In this document: positions 22,681 through 52,902 of the stretch, piece after piece
Numbering within the stretch: position 1 is the stretch's first letter
Layout of the letters: each line of letters opens with the position of its first letter
Source: Megasphaera coli
GTDB taxonomy: Bacteria; Bacillota; Negativicutes; Veillonellales; Megasphaeraceae
Direction of reading: 5' to 3'
Assembly: GCF_900095855.1 (NCBI RefSeq)
Contig: NZ_FMIY01000002.1
Coordinates: 611,322-675,321 of the forward strand
Length of the DNA: 64,000 nt
Program-made: the position numbers and the translations under genes
Notes under the pieces: generated by a model
Told to the model about the DNA's origin: nothing
Seen by the model: only the letters and a program-made list of their open reading frames with translations
Database searches by the model: none

Positions 22681-22842
22681 AATAATTCCTCCGTTCTCGT
22701 TCCCATTCAGAGATACAAGGCGTATTTAACATATGCAGGAAATCTGCCTGTCCGGTGCACTTCCGCAGAGATAATGCCCATATTGAACAGTAACTTTCCT
22801 CTATGTCTTGTTCAGTATATCACAATCTTTTTTGTTTGCCAA
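22681..22842 (-). promoter_or_regulatory. Promoter and long leader of the ECF S-component gene
   Basis: TTGGCA (22837-22842), 17-bp spacer, TATACT (22814-22819), implying a leader of about 127 nt. The leader does not match riboswitch consensus motifs I know (THF, TPP, cobalamin, preQ1). It contains short complementary segments, such as GGAAA and TTTCC, and could fold. Confidence 0.6.
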
Positions 22843-48245: not shown

Positions 48246-49517
48246 TTAGAATACGAATACGAACTGTGCACGTGTGAGTTCTTCCGGATCCTTCGTGTCG
48301 TCTTTTGCTTTGGACGAGAAAGACTGGAATACCTGGAACTGCGCGTTCTTAGCGAAGGTGTAGTCGGCACCGACACCCCACGTTTCAATTCCGTTCGTTT
48401 TGCCGAGAAGGGCATCCGTTCTCCAGTTGCCAGTAGAACCGTAGATACCGTTCTTTTCAGCATTCAAGTAGTCGACCCAGAGATCCCAAGACTTGGGTTG
48501 CGTAAATTTAGCCTTGCCGTACTGCAGTTTAGCGAGGAATACGTCGGCATCGGATGTGGATCCCATGTTGTTTACTTTTTCATATTCACCGAAGACGTTC
48601 CACTTCTTGCCGAAGTTAATGCTTGCATAGGCACCCCAGAGGTCGTCGGGACGGTCATTGTTCACTGCCGGAGCCGTATGGAAGCTGTTGTAGTATGCAC
48701 CCAGAGCGGAACCTGCCGCGGAGCCGCCGCCGAAGAAGCCTTCCAATTCACCGTAACCGGTCTTGACATTGTTCAAGTTGCCTTCTTTGAACTTACCGTA
48801 GCCGGCTGTAGCGGCAAACTTGTCGTTAGCGTATTTGAGCTGAGCGCCGTCGAAGTTATCGCCGAACTGAATGCCGGAAGCGTTGCCCAGTTCATAGTCG
48901 TAACGGCCGACCATGACATCCCAGTTCTTGTCGCCGCCGAGCTTATAATCCACATACGCGCGGTCAACGAAGAATTTGTCTTTGTCGCTGTCAGATGCGG
49001 CATCCTCGTTGGCAAAATTGGTGTTGAAATTTACGCCCAATACGGCCGTTGCGCGGTCGTTAATTCTCGCGTTAGCGCGGAGACGCGTACGGAACTGCCA
49101 GGAACCGTCATTTTTGTTGGACGTGTCGTTCTGGTTCATGTAACGGAGACGAGCGTCGCCCGTCAGTTTTACGTTACCTACGCGTTCTTCCAGGTTGGAT
49201 ACGCGAACGCCGAGGTTGTTGAGTTCATCGGAAAATTCGTCGGCCAACTTGTTGATGAGAGCGCGCTGTTCCGCATTGGCACGGTCTTCGTGAGCCATAG
49301 CCTTGGCTACGATTTCAGCCGCTTCATAGCGGGTGATGTTGCGGTCACCTTCAAAATGAACGCCGTCAACGCCCTGGATGATGCCGGAATTTGCCAATTC
49401 CACTACGGAATTGTACGCCCAGCTGTCGGCCGGTACGTCGACAAACGGGTTGGCAGCAAATGCCGTAGCACCTACAGCCATGGATGCAACTAATGTTGCG
49501 AGTACTTTCTTTTTCAT
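48246..49517 (-). CDS. ompM: OmpM-type outer-membrane porin with SLH domain, copy 1
   Basis: 423 residues. Signal peptide about 1-21 (cut after TAFA), SLH domain about 22-80 (NPFVDVPADSWAYNSV, GIIQGVDG, ITRYEAAEIVAKAM) that binds pyruvylated or polyamine-modified peptidoglycan, a short coiled coil (about 80-115, ADEFSDELNNLGVRVSNLEERV in parts), then a 16-strand-type beta-barrel to the terminal phenylalanine (FVFVF), the usual BAM signal. In Negativicutes OmpM tethers outer membrane to wall and forms pores. The barrel contains KNWDVMVGRYDYELGN and KFAATAGYGKFKEG shared with copy 2. Confidence 0.94.
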   Translation of the reverse strand: MKKKVLATLVASMAVGATAFAANPFVDVPADSWAYNSVVELANSGIIQGVDGVHFEGDRNITRYEAAEIVAKAMAHEDRANAEQRALINKLADEFSDELNNLGVRVSNLEERVGNVKLTGDARLRYMNQNDTSNKNDGSWQFRTRLRANARINDRATAVLGVNFNTNFANEDAASDSDKDKFFVDRAYVDYKLGGDKNWDVMVGRYDYELGNASGIQFGDNFDGAQLKYANDKFAATAGYGKFKEGNLNNVKTGYGELEGFFGGGSAAGSALGAYYNSFHTAPAVNNDRPDDLWGAYASINFGKKWNVFGEYEKVNNMGSTSDADVFLAKLQYGKAKFTQPKSWDLWVDYLNAEKNGIYGSTGNWRTDALLGKTNGIETWGVGADYTFAKNAQFQVFQSFSSKAKDDTKDPEELTRAQFVFVF

Positions 49518-49730
49518 TGTAAATACCCCTTTTCAAAAATATATTTTCTTGTGCCGGTACAGGTCGGAAAATATATGCACTGCCGTCAGGGGTCACAGGC
49601 GAGTTGTCCATGTTTCCTCTCTCTTACTGCCTGACTGCGTATGCCCTATTTTCCTTTACATCCGTTGCCTGCATACGAGTACACCAACGGATTTGTTAAA
49701 AGTATACAACCTATTCGGAAAACTTGTCAA
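49518..49730 (-). promoter_or_regulatory. ompM1 promoter and structured leader
   Basis: TTGACA (49725-49730), 18-bp spacer, TATACT (49701-49706), start near 49694. The mRNA opens with a hairpin (49660-49692): stem ATCCGTTG/CAACGGAT, loop GTGTACTCGTATGCAGG. Further down, GTCAGG/CCTGAC encloses a conserved box (49598-49624) reading GAGAGGAAACATGG-ACAACTCGCC, with a Shine-Dalgarno and ATG that open an 81-codon frame overlapping ompM1 out of frame. Total leader is about 175 nt. Nearly identical ahead of ompM2. Confidence 0.75.
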
Positions 49731-49832
49731 GCTCTTAAAGTTTTCTCTTTTGTCCGCCTTTTATGGCAGCTCCGTAGCGGTTATTCCGTCATTTTTCAGC
49801 TCCGTGCCGTAACGGAGCTGTTACGGGAATGC

Positions 49833-49861
49833 AAAAAAGACCGCTCAAAAGAACGGTCTTT
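49833..49861 (-). terminator. Terminator after ompM2
   Basis: AAAGACCG/CGGTCTTT with a 10-nt loop and a T6 tail on the minus strand. Another hairpin, AGCTCCGT/ACGGAGCT, lies next to it at 49798-49820. Confidence 0.9.
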
Positions 49862-49885
49862 CCTGCAACATTTCTCTTATTCAGC

Positions 49886-51121
49886 TTAGAATACGAATAC
49901 GAATTGCGCACGCGTGAGTTCATCGCGGTCTTCGCTCGTGCTCTTAACTTTATTATTGAAGGTCTGGAATACCTGGAACTGCGCGTTCTTGGCAAACGTA
50001 TAGTCTGCACCGACGCCCCAGCTCTTCGTATCGTTAACGTTGTTTCTCCAGCTTCCCGTTGCATCATCATCTGCCGCGTTAGCGTCAACATTAATGTAGT
50101 CAACCCAGAGATCCCAAGTTTTAGGCTGAGAAAACATTGCCTTGCCGTACTGCAATTTGCCGCCATAGCCGTTGGCATGTCCGGAATCGCCTTTTACGCG
50201 ATATCCTTCAAAATTGAAGTTCCACTTCTTCGCGAAGTTGATGCTCGTGTATGCGCCCCAAAGACTATCCAAATCAGCAACATTGCTGAAGTCATTGTAG
50301 TACACACCTATAGCGGAACCTGCCGCGGAGCCGCCGCCGAAGAAGCCTTCCAATTCGCCGTAACCGGTCTTGACGTTGTTCAAGCCACCTTCTTTGAACT
50401 TACCATAGCCGGCTGTAGCGGCAAATTTGTCGTTAGCGTATTTGAGCTGAGCACCGTCAAAGGTTTCACCGTACGGAAGAGCCATGTTGTTGCCCAATTC
50501 ATAGTCGTAACGACCGACCATGATATCCCAGTTCTTGTCACCGCCGAGTTTATAATCTACATATGCGCGGTCGACATAGAATTTGTCTTTGTCTTCAGAT
50601 GCGGCGTTCGTGTTGGAGAATTTGGTGTTGAAGTTTACACCCAATACGGCCGTTGCGCGGTCGTTAATCATGGCATTGGCACGAAGACGTGTACGGAACT
50701 GCCAGGAGTTGTCGTTTTTCTGTCCGGCATCTTTTTGATGCATGTAACGGATACGAGCGTCGCCCGTCAGTTTTACGTTGCCGACACGTTCTTCCAGGTT
50801 GGATACGCGAACGCCGAGGTTGTTGAGTTCATCGGAAAATTCGTCGGCCAACTTGTTGATGAGAGCACGCTGTTCCGCATTGGCACGGTCTTCGTGAGCC
50901 ATAGCCTTGGCCACGATTTCAGCCGCTTCATAACGGGTGATGTTGCGGTCACCCTGGAAGTGAACGCCGTCAACGCCCTGAATGATGCCGGAATTTGCCA
51001 ATTCCACTACGGAATTGTACGCCCAGCTGTCGGCCGGTACGTCGACAAACGGGTTGGCTGCAAATGCCGTAGCGCCTACAGCCATGGTTGCGACTAAAGT
51101 TGCGAGTACTTTCTTTTTCAT
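49886..51121 (-). CDS. ompM: OmpM-type outer-membrane porin with SLH domain, copy 2
   Basis: 411 residues. Signal peptide, SLH domain and coiled coil are almost identical to copy 1 through about residue 120 (it has HFQGDR where copy 1 has HFEGDR, and RIRYMHQKD for RLRYMNQND). Many barrel strands are shared (GDKNWDIMVGRYDYELGN, NNVKTGYGELEGFFGGGSAAGSA in parts), and the ends are alike (FVFVF), while surface loops differ (FSNVADLDSLWGAY against a longer loop in copy 1). A recent duplication with diverging loops. Own promoter, leader and terminator. Confidence 0.94.
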   Translation of the reverse strand: MKKKVLATLVATMAVGATAFAANPFVDVPADSWAYNSVVELANSGIIQGVDGVHFQGDRNITRYEAAEIVAKAMAHEDRANAEQRALINKLADEFSDELNNLGVRVSNLEERVGNVKLTGDARIRYMHQKDAGQKNDNSWQFRTRLRANAMINDRATAVLGVNFNTKFSNTNAASEDKDKFYVDRAYVDYKLGGDKNWDIMVGRYDYELGNNMALPYGETFDGAQLKYANDKFAATAGYGKFKEGGLNNVKTGYGELEGFFGGGSAAGSAIGVYYNDFSNVADLDSLWGAYTSINFAKKWNFNFEGYRVKGDSGHANGYGGKLQYGKAMFSQPKTWDLWVDYINVDANAADDDATGSWRNNVNDTKSWGVGADYTFAKNAQFQVFQTFNNKVKSTSEDRDELTRAQFVFVF

Positions 51122-51334
51122 TGTAAATACCCCTTTTCAAAAATATATTTTCTTGTACCGGTACAGGTCGGAAAATATATGCACTGCCGTCAGGGGTCAC
51201 AGGCGAGTTGTCCATGTTTCCTCTCTCTTACTGCCTGACTGCGTATGCCCTATTTTCCTTTATATCTGTTGCCTGCACACGAGTACACCAACGGATTTGT
51301 TAAAAGTATACAACCTATTCGGAAAACTTGTCAA
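51122..51334 (-). promoter_or_regulatory. ompM2 promoter and structured leader
   Basis: TTGACA (51329-51334), 18-bp spacer, TATACT (51305-51310). The 5' hairpin (51264-51296) has stem ATCCGTTG/CAACAGAT with one C-A mismatch and loop GTGTACTCGTGTGCAGG. The conserved box with SD and ATG is at 51202-51228 and opens an 81-codon frame overlapping ompM2. The leader differs from that of ompM1 at only a few positions. Confidence 0.75.
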
Positions 51335-51343
51335 GCAATAATA

Positions 51344-51376
51344 CAAAAAGCGACGGGATAAAAAATTCCCATCGCT
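51344..51376 (-). terminator. Terminator after ompM3
   Basis: AGCGA-C-GGGA / TCCC-A-TCGCT with T-run on the minus strand; it ends 10 bp before the -35 box of ompM2. Confidence 0.88.
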
Positions 51377-51392
51377 CTTGTATTCATTCTTT

Positions 51393-52703
51393 TTAGAAGA
51401 AGAAGTCCAGTTCCGCACTGGTGTATTCTTTTTGTTTGACATTCGAATTGTCGGCATTTTTCGTGCCGAAAGTCTGGCCTACTGCAAGGACGACATTTTT
51501 AGCCAGTGCATAGTCGAAGCCTACGCCCCAGCCTTTAACACCGTGTTCATAACCGAGGTAGCCGTTGTCGCGCCAGTTGGCCGTATTGCCGTAGAATGCA
51601 CCTTTGTCAGCCTTTACGTAGTCGACCCATACATCCCAGCTGCCCTTTTCTTCGGGATCTGCAGCGCCATACTGAAGTTTAGCGCCCCAGAGGTTGCCGT
51701 CCGGATTTGTGGCCGTTTCTTTGTCCTTTGTAACGCGTTGGTAGTCGCCGGTGAGATTCCACTTCTTGCCGAAGTTGAAGGACAGGTAACCGCCGAAGAG
51801 ATGGTCAAGGTTCTTCGCTTTCGCTTCGCCGTCTACAAAGTTGTTGTAGTAAACGCCTGCACCGACCTTATCCCACATGCCGTCCAGGCTTACATACGCC
51901 GTTTTAACGTTGAGGAGGTCACCCCAAGTATTTACATATCCGTCATTACCCGGAGTCGTTTCTTCGTTGTCGCCTTCTTTAAATTTACCGTAACCGGCAG
52001 TCAAAGCAACGTGGTCCGTAAAATATTTCATCTGTGCGCCGTCAAAGGTATCGCCATATTGGAGTCCCAAGCCGTTGCCGATTTGGTAATCATAGCGGCC
52101 GACGAGGAAATTGAAGTGGCTGCCCGCGCTGTAGTCAACGTTTGCATGGTCCACATAGAGCTTGTGGTCTTCGCCGCTCGAAGCGGAATTGGAGTCGGCA
52201 AAGCTCATATCGTCCGTGCTGATACCGAAGTTGACCTTCGTACGGTCGTTAACGGTTGCCGTAGCAAGGAGGTGAACTGCATATTCCCAGGAAGCATCGT
52301 TTTCAATGTTCCCCTTCTGATGCTGATAATGGATATTTGCGTCACCTGTAAGTTTTACATTACCTACGCGGTTTTCCAAATTGGCAACGCGAACGCCGAG
52401 GTTGTTGAGTTCATCGGAAAATTCGTCGGCCAATTTGTTGATGAGAGCGCGCTGTTCCGCATTGGCACGGTCTTCGTGAGCCATAGCCTTGGCTACGATT
52501 TCAGCCGCTTCATAACGGGTAATGTTGCGTTCGCCTTCAAAGTGAACGCCGTCAACGCCCTGGATGATGCCGGAATTTGCCAATTCCACTACGGAATTGT
52601 ACGCCCAGCTGTCGGCCGGTACGTCGACAAACGGGTTGGCCGCAAATGCCGTAGCGCCTACAGCCATGGTTGCGACTAAAGTTGCGAGTACTTTCTTTTT
52701 CAT
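51393..52703 (-). CDS. ompM: OmpM-type outer-membrane porin with SLH domain, copy 3
   Basis: 436 residues. The first about 115 residues match copies 1 and 2 almost exactly (HFEGERN, and GVRVANLENRVGNVKLTGDA). The barrel is clearly different: SWEYAVHLLATATVNDRTKVNFGISTDD in parts, HFNFLVGRYDYQIGNGLG, and the ending SAELDFFF rather than FVFVF. It therefore seems an older paralogue whose 5' half has stayed uniform with the others. Highly charged linker and loop (KFKEGDNEETTPGNDG). Own promoter and leader of a different sequence but similar design. Confidence 0.94.
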   Translation of the reverse strand: MKKKVLATLVATMAVGATAFAANPFVDVPADSWAYNSVVELANSGIIQGVDGVHFEGERNITRYEAAEIVAKAMAHEDRANAEQRALINKLADEFSDELNNLGVRVANLENRVGNVKLTGDANIHYQHQKGNIENDASWEYAVHLLATATVNDRTKVNFGISTDDMSFADSNSASSGEDHKLYVDHANVDYSAGSHFNFLVGRYDYQIGNGLGLQYGDTFDGAQMKYFTDHVALTAGYGKFKEGDNEETTPGNDGYVNTWGDLLNVKTAYVSLDGMWDKVGAGVYYNNFVDGEAKAKNLDHLFGGYLSFNFGKKWNLTGDYQRVTKDKETATNPDGNLWGAKLQYGAADPEEKGSWDVWVDYVKADKGAFYGNTANWRDNGYLGYEHGVKGWGVGFDYALAKNVVLAVGQTFGTKNADNSNVKQKEYTSAELDFFF

Positions 52704-52902
52704 TTAAATTACCTCTTTTCGTGTGTATACTTTTTCCTGCTTCGTAACGTAACGACAGTATACATGCGAATCGGCCTTCCGGGCGAGTTGACCATGTTTC
52801 CTCTCTTCCGGCTCGATTACTTTTTACACTGCCGCGGCAATACCGCCTGCATGAGCACCGATATTGCGCCTACATTTTAACGTAATTAATAAAACCTGTC
52901 AA
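52704..52902 (-). promoter_or_regulatory. ompM3 promoter and structured leader
   Basis: TTGACA (52897-52902), 17-bp spacer, TAAAAT (52874-52879), start near 52867. The mRNA begins with a hairpin (52837-52867): 9-bp stem GCAATATCG/CGGTATTGC, loop GTGCTCATGCAGG, which keeps the loop motif of ompM1/2 on an unrelated stem. The conserved box (52782-52806, GAGAGGAAACATGG-TCAACTCGCC) opens a 28-codon frame that stops 5 nt before the ompM3 start. CCGG/CCGG segments flank the box. The AT-rich stretch 52905-53035 upstream shows no gene. Confidence 0.75.

Follow-up and report, generated by a model that had tools for sequence, protein, structure and literature searches.

The window analysed here, a stretch of 64,000 nucleotides (nt) on contig NZ_FMIY01000002.1 of Megasphaera coli, is contained in a genome of 1.71 Mb. 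It carries three tandem genes on the minus strand for porins with the SLH domain (PF00395): ompM1 (48246..49517), ompM2 (49886..51121), and ompM3 (51393..52703). Two-membraned Firmicutes use OmpM as the tether and as a main porin. Among the named genome contigs scanned, the closest OmpM matches came from Anaeroglobus geminatus (83%) and Megasphaera micronuciformis (78%). The leader of each gene contains a hairpin at its predicted 5' end, here called P1, and, downstream of it, a long imperfect stem, P2, that bears a second hairpin with a conserved loop, the tip. The computation established the P2/tip element, its conservation and covariation, its association with genes for outer-membrane proteins (OMPs), and two competing complementarities. 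On balance, the ompM leaders appear to be cis-regulatory members of a widespread class of structured RNAs before OMP genes in two-membraned Bacillota, in which the 3' strand of P2 can pair with one of two partners, the 5' strand of P2 and the Shine-Dalgarno (SD) region of the same mRNA.

A promoter-like site with 11 of 12 matches lies upstream of each ompM gene. The -10 hexamer of the ompM1 site, TATACT, ends at 49701, and the leader predicted from this site and from the open reading frame 48246-49517 occupies 49518..49694 (minus strand, as for all leader features below), 177 nt up to the ATG at 49517. Promoter-like sites are not enriched in the scan as a whole (7, vs. 6.5 with a standard deviation of 2.6 in shuffles), and thus the transcription starts of the ompM genes are predictions only. 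The promoter and leader of copy 1 (49518-49740) share 98% identity over 215 nt with the corresponding part of copy 2. This identity looks like a sign of recent duplication or gene conversion. Because these two copies are near-identical, only copy 3 is independent for comparison inside the window.

The core of the tip, GAGGAAACATGG(A/T)CAACTC, is common to all three leaders and lies 33-40 nt downstream of P1. The tip pattern has three matches in the window, vs. 0.00 expected. Pattern and covariance model place the tip hairpin at 49601..49619 in copy 1 (GAG-GAAACATGGACAA-CTC), at 51205..51223 in copy 2, and at 52785..52803 in copy 3 (GAG-GAAACATGGTCAA-CTC). P2 is predicted by folding at 49566..49654 in copy 1, where GGAAAATA pairs with TATTTTCC on the outside and GTCAGG with CCTGAC on the inside, at 51170..51258 in copy 2, and at 52754..52833 in copy 3, where the outer strands are GGCAGTGTA and TATACTGTC; P2 of copy 1 is also supported by covariation in relatives. 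The same tip core is found upstream of ompM in other members of the family. The P2 strands vary between leaders yet remain paired. A likeness of the P2 internal loop to a loop E or a kink-turn, seen by eye, was rejected, as several leaders have ordinary pairs there instead.

The consensus is a loop GAAAC-NN-GG-(1-3 nt)-A, closed by a RAG/CUY helix, on the variable outer stem P2. Among 165 leaders, the loop is 12 nt long in 129 and 13 nt in 36; the helix that closes it reads GAG/CUC in 160 leaders and AAG/CUU in the other 5. GAAAC and GG are nearly invariant in these leaders, NN is mostly AT, AA, or TA, and the flanking columns hold 0.0-0.8 bits; this invariance is partly built in, because the tips of these statistics, of the class-wide alignment, and of the SD tests described below were chosen with a pattern in which most loop bases and RAG/CUY are set. 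Class-wide, the outer stem stays ~10 nt from the tip on either side. The tip-pattern scan of viral contigs returned 99 stretches, which were assumed to be background.

The pairing of P2 and the tip was examined in alignments. In a gapless alignment (70 columns, 28 distinct sequences), two-sided change is seen at 8 of 11 pairs, and 91.2% of the cells pair, vs. 75.3 +- 1.4 in shuffles and 30-54% when the alignment is slid. The wider alignment A3 has 75.9% of its cells paired (61.3 +- 1.2 in shuffles). For the class-wide alignment, 138 tips found by pattern were reduced to 133 with an OMP-like frame, to 129 distinct usable rows, and to 126 after the removal of near-identical ones. Its nine proposed pairs reach a covariation sum of 390.1, vs. 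3.3 +- 28.9 with a maximum of 178 in 300 simulations of a tree-based null, and a share of paired cells of 0.708 (0.447 +- 0.034 in the null). The covariation sum of the family alignment, from which the diverged copy L057 was left out, is 103.6, vs. 0.5 +- 10.6. The null, in which columns are simulated independently along a FastTree tree, covers the proposed pairs, and one of these, 25-44, is biased because the tip pattern demands it.

The element is widely distributed in Negativicutes. A first covariance model, R1, matched 22 of 61 genomes of the order at an E-value of 0.1. All of the 22 places read, some of which were the same match met twice, precede SLH-porin genes except L100, which is without an intact frame. 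At E 0.01, a second covariance model, R2, built from 44 leaders, had matches in 245 of 330 Negativicutes genomes, with 80 of 100 genera represented, and its best E-value is 1e-4 or lower in ~167 of the 330 by a hand count. The E-values of such short-calibrated models are rough; weak matches (E 5e-7 to 0.01) were read for a subset of the genomes, and some of the 245 may rest on a chance match. Among 55 loci read (5 seen before, 40 hand-picked from the listed matches with E <=5e-7), 53 are upstream of a gene for an SLH-porin or a porin, and two (L134 and L175) upstream of a truncated or degraded one. From a second set of 57 listed R2 matches, 50 were read (L130 and 49 others, including 3 repeats): 43 stand before an OMP gene, 6 are in an unrelated context, and 1 (L183) is at a contig end. 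Five of the six unrelated matches (L188, L209, L211, L214, L220, and L221) have E >0.001, and one has 1.4e-5. The genes downstream of the tip include those for porins without the SLH domain (L137/L177, L189, L190, L195, L202, L208, and L213). In five Megasphaera-type genomes (G000, G035, G043, G080, and G172), 18 of the 23 OmpM genes listed have the element by a hand count. The locus read as L100 and L175 (G217:C19, around 8050) retains the leader hairpin before a seemingly degraded or truncated ompM frame.

Outside Negativicutes, the association with OMP genes recurs. R2 matched 19 of 249 Bacillota genomes drawn, at E 1e-4, and 15 of these genomes are not Negativicutes; 11 of the 15 matches precede OMP genes and 4 (L233, L238, L240, and L241) do not. 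In the same kind of draw, a search for Omp85 was positive in 63 of 249 genomes, which include 16 of the 19 with an R2 match. The three genomes with an R2 match and without Omp85 (G359, G389, and G558) hold three of the four chance matches. In a second class of Bacillota, that of G550, 27 of 59 genomes match R2. Of 28 loci read in this class, one of them seen before, two (L248 and L260) without the exact tip were left out of the count of gene contexts, and all 26 that have the exact tip stand upstream of an OMP-like gene. We infer from its SLH porins and PMC5007114 that this class is Halanaerobiia. In a small class, that of G336, all five of five genomes have a match, before a porin-like gene without the SLH domain. 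The outer membranes of Negativicutes and Halanaerobiales have been argued to be homologous and inherited (PMC5007114), which makes a common leader element of OMP genes plausible. The leaders of a further family, f42 (L227, L229, L232, L235, and L236), stand before genes for OMP-like proteins without an evident SLH domain. Their tip ends with ATGCTC, and their SD regions do not fit the layout described next.

Complementarity exists between the P2 3' strand and the SD region of the mRNA to which it belongs, often past the SD core, as in CCUUCUUAGG with CCUAAGGAGG. When the P2 5' strand of copy 1 is kept open (-34.8 vs. -50.6 kcal/mol), the anti-SD segment ACCCCT of the 3' strand (49588..49593) pairs in the predicted fold with the SD region AGGGGT (49525..49530), and UAUAUUUUC pairs with GAAAAUAUA. 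The corresponding segment of copy 2 lies at 51192..51197, with its partner AGGGGT at 51129-51134. The helix between the P2 3' strand and the SD region reaches ~14 pairs in L137. One strand serves both P2 and the SD helix, and the two predicted folds exclude each other, which is the layout of a switch. In L225, a longer SD-blocking duplex includes the pairing of UGAUUG, past the tip stem, with CAAUCA, which directly precedes the SD AAGGGGG; related helices are present in L249, L257, and L263.

On average, the complementarity favours the own SD region. Over 127 leaders, the mean duplex energy of the P2 3' strand is -10.6 kcal/mol with its own SD region, -8.0 with those of others, and -6.2 for shuffled strands, and the preference for its own was reached in 0 of 2000 permutations. 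When 162 leaders were permuted within clusters of protein similarity, the energy was -11.6 for the own SD, vs. -10.5 to -10.9, again with 0 of 2000 permutations reaching it at each of three cut-offs; the own SD was better than the median of the others in 34 of 41 clusters. The clusters were made by average linkage, as single linkage had merged leaders into one cluster of 116. The two sets are 127 of 133 and 162 of 165 leaders, those with spacers outside the set range being left out. With the P2 5' strand held open, at least 5 bases of the SD region pair with the region after the tip in 112/127 leaders; free folds have at least 4 bases paired between this arm and the SD in 34/127.

These features point to a mechanism in which the choice between the P2 fold and the SD-blocking fold would set the translation of the OMP. 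The SD helix formed by the P2 3' strand would block the ribosome. Something common to these cells may read the fixed loop, be it a protein that binds RNA, a small RNA, or a ligand, and this reader would stabilise or disrupt P2. P2 is presumably the default, and whatever prevents or undoes it, such as a bound factor or the loss of the 5' arm by cleavage, would close the SD site. P1 would be a family-specific addition, perhaps for stability.

Several observations weigh against this cis-regulatory reading. P2 is predicted to be more stable than the SD-blocking fold in most leaders, by a median of 8 kcal/mol and by >3 kcal/mol in 115/127, so that the SD-blocked state may seldom arise as long as P2 is left intact. 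For copies 1 and 2, the prediction is that the SD pairs with the first codons in the P2 fold too; this fold is thus not plainly open, and our confidence is reduced for this reason. Copy 3 is without a simple complement to the SD core, and the alternative helix of this copy is located immediately 5' of the SD. Family f42 has no SD specificity (own -7.2, others -7.0, n=5). The partly built-in invariance of the loop belongs here as well. The pairs that change on both sides in A3 (9) are not above shuffles (8.4). When all 2211 column pairs entered a G-test, u2-d3 (E 0.03) was the single one below 0.05, followed by u1-d1, not a proposed pair (0.055), and u15-d15 (0.345). The distribution also has gaps. 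Among the OmpM genes listed for eight larger genomes (G020, G024, G036, G056, G059, G083, G127, and G131), more than half are without an R2 match, as a hand count found one for 20 of 53. Ten R2 matches overall lie in unrelated contexts, two of them at E 1.4e-5 and 9.5e-7. Among the 63 Omp85-positive Bacillota genomes, 47 are without an R2 match at 1e-4 and 16 have one.

The tip loop has hardly changed even among distant relatives with two membranes, which suggests that the production of outer-membrane proteins is under a control that is old and held in common. In a stronger form, which we hold tentatively and think rather doubtful, the element would be an ancestral signal of an outer-membrane regulon: one hairpin and one conserved trans-acting factor would have coordinated the translation of OmpM and other porins since the ancestor of two-membraned Bacillota, and would have been lost together with the outer membrane. 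This form is weakened by the 47 Omp85-positive genomes without a match.

P1 had been the subject of the preliminary description, made from the sequence of the window, which placed a hairpin at the predicted start of all three ompM mRNAs. The hairpins are present there, at 49660..49692 in copy 1 (fold, relatives), 51264..51296 in copy 2 (fold), and 52837..52867 in copy 3 (fold, relatives), where the stem is different and the loop ends are the same. The 5' edge of P1 is 7-9 nt past the end of the -10 hexamer in each copy. The stem change noted earlier in copy 2 exists and is not compensated: a C-G pair becomes C.A, which breaks one stem pair, and the minimum-energy fold of copy 2 is without the P1 hairpin. 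Selection on RNA structure had been proposed from a conserved loop on a changed stem, and this logic extends to relatives. A strict P1 pattern, defined as an outer helix of at least 5 pairs, RG, an inner helix of at least 3 pairs that starts with U and ends with A, and then GGY, is found in 13 of the 29 leaders of family f1, in which alone P1 was sought, vs. 0.06 on average and at most 1 in 200 rounds of dinucleotide shuffles. The search covered a 90-nt stretch, and 13/29 is therefore a lower bound; some of the misses are due to a cut or to one mismatch. P1 stems vary freely among f1 leaders, and the RG on the 5' side and the GGY on the 3' side of the short inner helix are kept. Of the 13 positive leaders, 10 have G-C as the second inner pair (inner helix UG...CA) and 3 have A-U (UA...UA). 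P1 is thus under selection. It is missing by the strict test in 16/29 f1 leaders that retain the tip hairpin, and P1 is accessory to the downstream tip/P2 element. The earlier reading of the leader was right in proposing selection on RNA structure and incomplete in its object, as the class-wide element, the second hairpin with its outer stem, had been overlooked. A pseudoknot of the P1 loop, CGTATGC with GCATACG, did not hold up. The complement is present in copy 1 and retained as G-U in copy 2, and equally long complements occur in 52 and 65 of 300 shuffles; a complement of at least 7 nt is found in 5 of 14 leaders tested (11 to 65 of 300 shuffles), with no consistent segment among relatives.

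The position of P1 bears on an alternative, in which the main role of the leader is to keep abundant OMP mRNAs from being degraded, P2 and the tip being additional structure and no switch. The 5' stem-loop of E. coli ompA is such a structured 5' end of an abundant OMP mRNA. P1 lies at the predicted 5' end, with 0-2 unpaired bases ahead of it, and OmpM proteins and transcripts are reported to be very abundant in Veillonella (PMC5491611). The ompM leaders differ from that stem-loop in the second hairpin with its fixed loop, common to many OMP genes and lineages. Protection from decay alone needs neither a loop nearly fixed over several classes nor complementarity to the own SD, and the 16 tip-bearing leaders without strict P1 also argue against it. 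We consider it unlikely as the main function.

A second alternative is a metabolite-binding riboswitch, as put forward for the SLH motif, with cyclic-di-GMP or another cell-wall signal as the ligand. The SLH motif (Stav et al. 2019, PMC6429828) was described from 80 examples in Synergistaceae, Clostridia, and Negativicutes and reported from the genome of Thermovirga lienii (Synergistetes). It was classed as a riboswitch candidate and thought to be cis-regulatory; ~60% of the examples precede SLH genes and the rest precede genes of unknown function, and cyclic-di-GMP was a guess for the ligand. The element here likewise lies upstream of genes for SLH-domain proteins and occurs in Negativicutes and other Firmicutes. 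Because gene and taxon association match, the ompM leader element is filed as probably the same RNA class, much widened and now with a testable mechanism, and not as a categorically new one. Set against those 80 examples, the element here has matches in 245/330 Negativicutes genomes, in a second Bacillota class, and in other families, also precedes genes for porins without SLH, and shows the own-SD complementarity and the added P1. A conserved loop beside two exclusive folds is what a riboswitch could offer, and the earlier classification favours it. However, conservation is confined to ~18 nt of a single hairpin, a small part, and no Rfam family, riboswitches included, matches the leaders searched. 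A ligand-binding riboswitch is held to be rather improbable. The search of Rfam 15 with gathering and relaxed thresholds found no family at the leaders of the window or at the other loci searched, the sub-threshold matches being away from the tips.

If the tip were the target of a trans-acting small RNA, a segment such as GUUUCCUC would pair with GAGGAAAC. MicA and RybB are small RNAs that act on OMP mRNAs, one post-transcriptional signal serving several OMP genes. The tip is similar in being a short fixed stretch displayed in a loop and common to several OMP genes of one genome. It differs in being known here from leaders alone and in its NN, which varies within one genome (CA, AA, and AC in G041; TA, AT, and AA in G229). 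Pairing of a small RNA across the loop therefore cannot be continuous, and we regard this account as quite unlikely. Two other readings of the loop can be set aside as very improbable. A site for CsrA/RsmA, with GGA displayed in a hairpin loop close to the SD, is suggested by the loop AAACANGGA of many leaders, which is near the CsrA consensus, but GG is fixed and the following A is not conserved, so that GGA is not invariant, and CsrA (PF02599) was found in 0/20 related genomes by a search that was positive in E. coli, B. subtilis, and T. maritima. An upstream reading frame, with GAGAGG followed by AUG as the conserved core, has in its favour the loop AUG after an SD-like run in this genome, and it is rejected as many relatives carry TAG, AAG, or CAG in place of ATG. 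The 81-codon frames that open at this AUG within the tip loop at 49611 and 51215 (49366-49611 and 50970-51215, minus strand) overlap the ompM starts and are probably accidental.

The SD-blocking fold proposed here has a parallel in the Yersinia ompA RNA thermometer (PMC8245352), in which the leader structure is able to block the ribosome site of an OMP mRNA. The ompM leaders are unlike it in that the SD block and a competing stem are mutually exclusive and a fixed loop is attached. A literature search found no description of post-transcriptional OMP control in diderm Firmicutes beyond the SLH candidate, and term searches in PMC10628300, PMC8040213, PMC2864571, and PMC8632094 found no such leader. 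If the proposed reading is true, one small RNA element marks and controls OMP genes across several classes, and a little-noticed riboswitch candidate, thought to be related to the S-layer, is recast as an outer-membrane signal. The element would then provide a handle for finding the factor that reads the loop, a means of recognising OMP genes by their sequence, and a new character to use in deciding whether the outer membrane of Firmicutes is ancestral. Elsewhere in the window, the Rfam pan motif (RF01749) is found at 22688-22780 on the minus strand with 42.5 bits, vs. a gathering score of 36.2.

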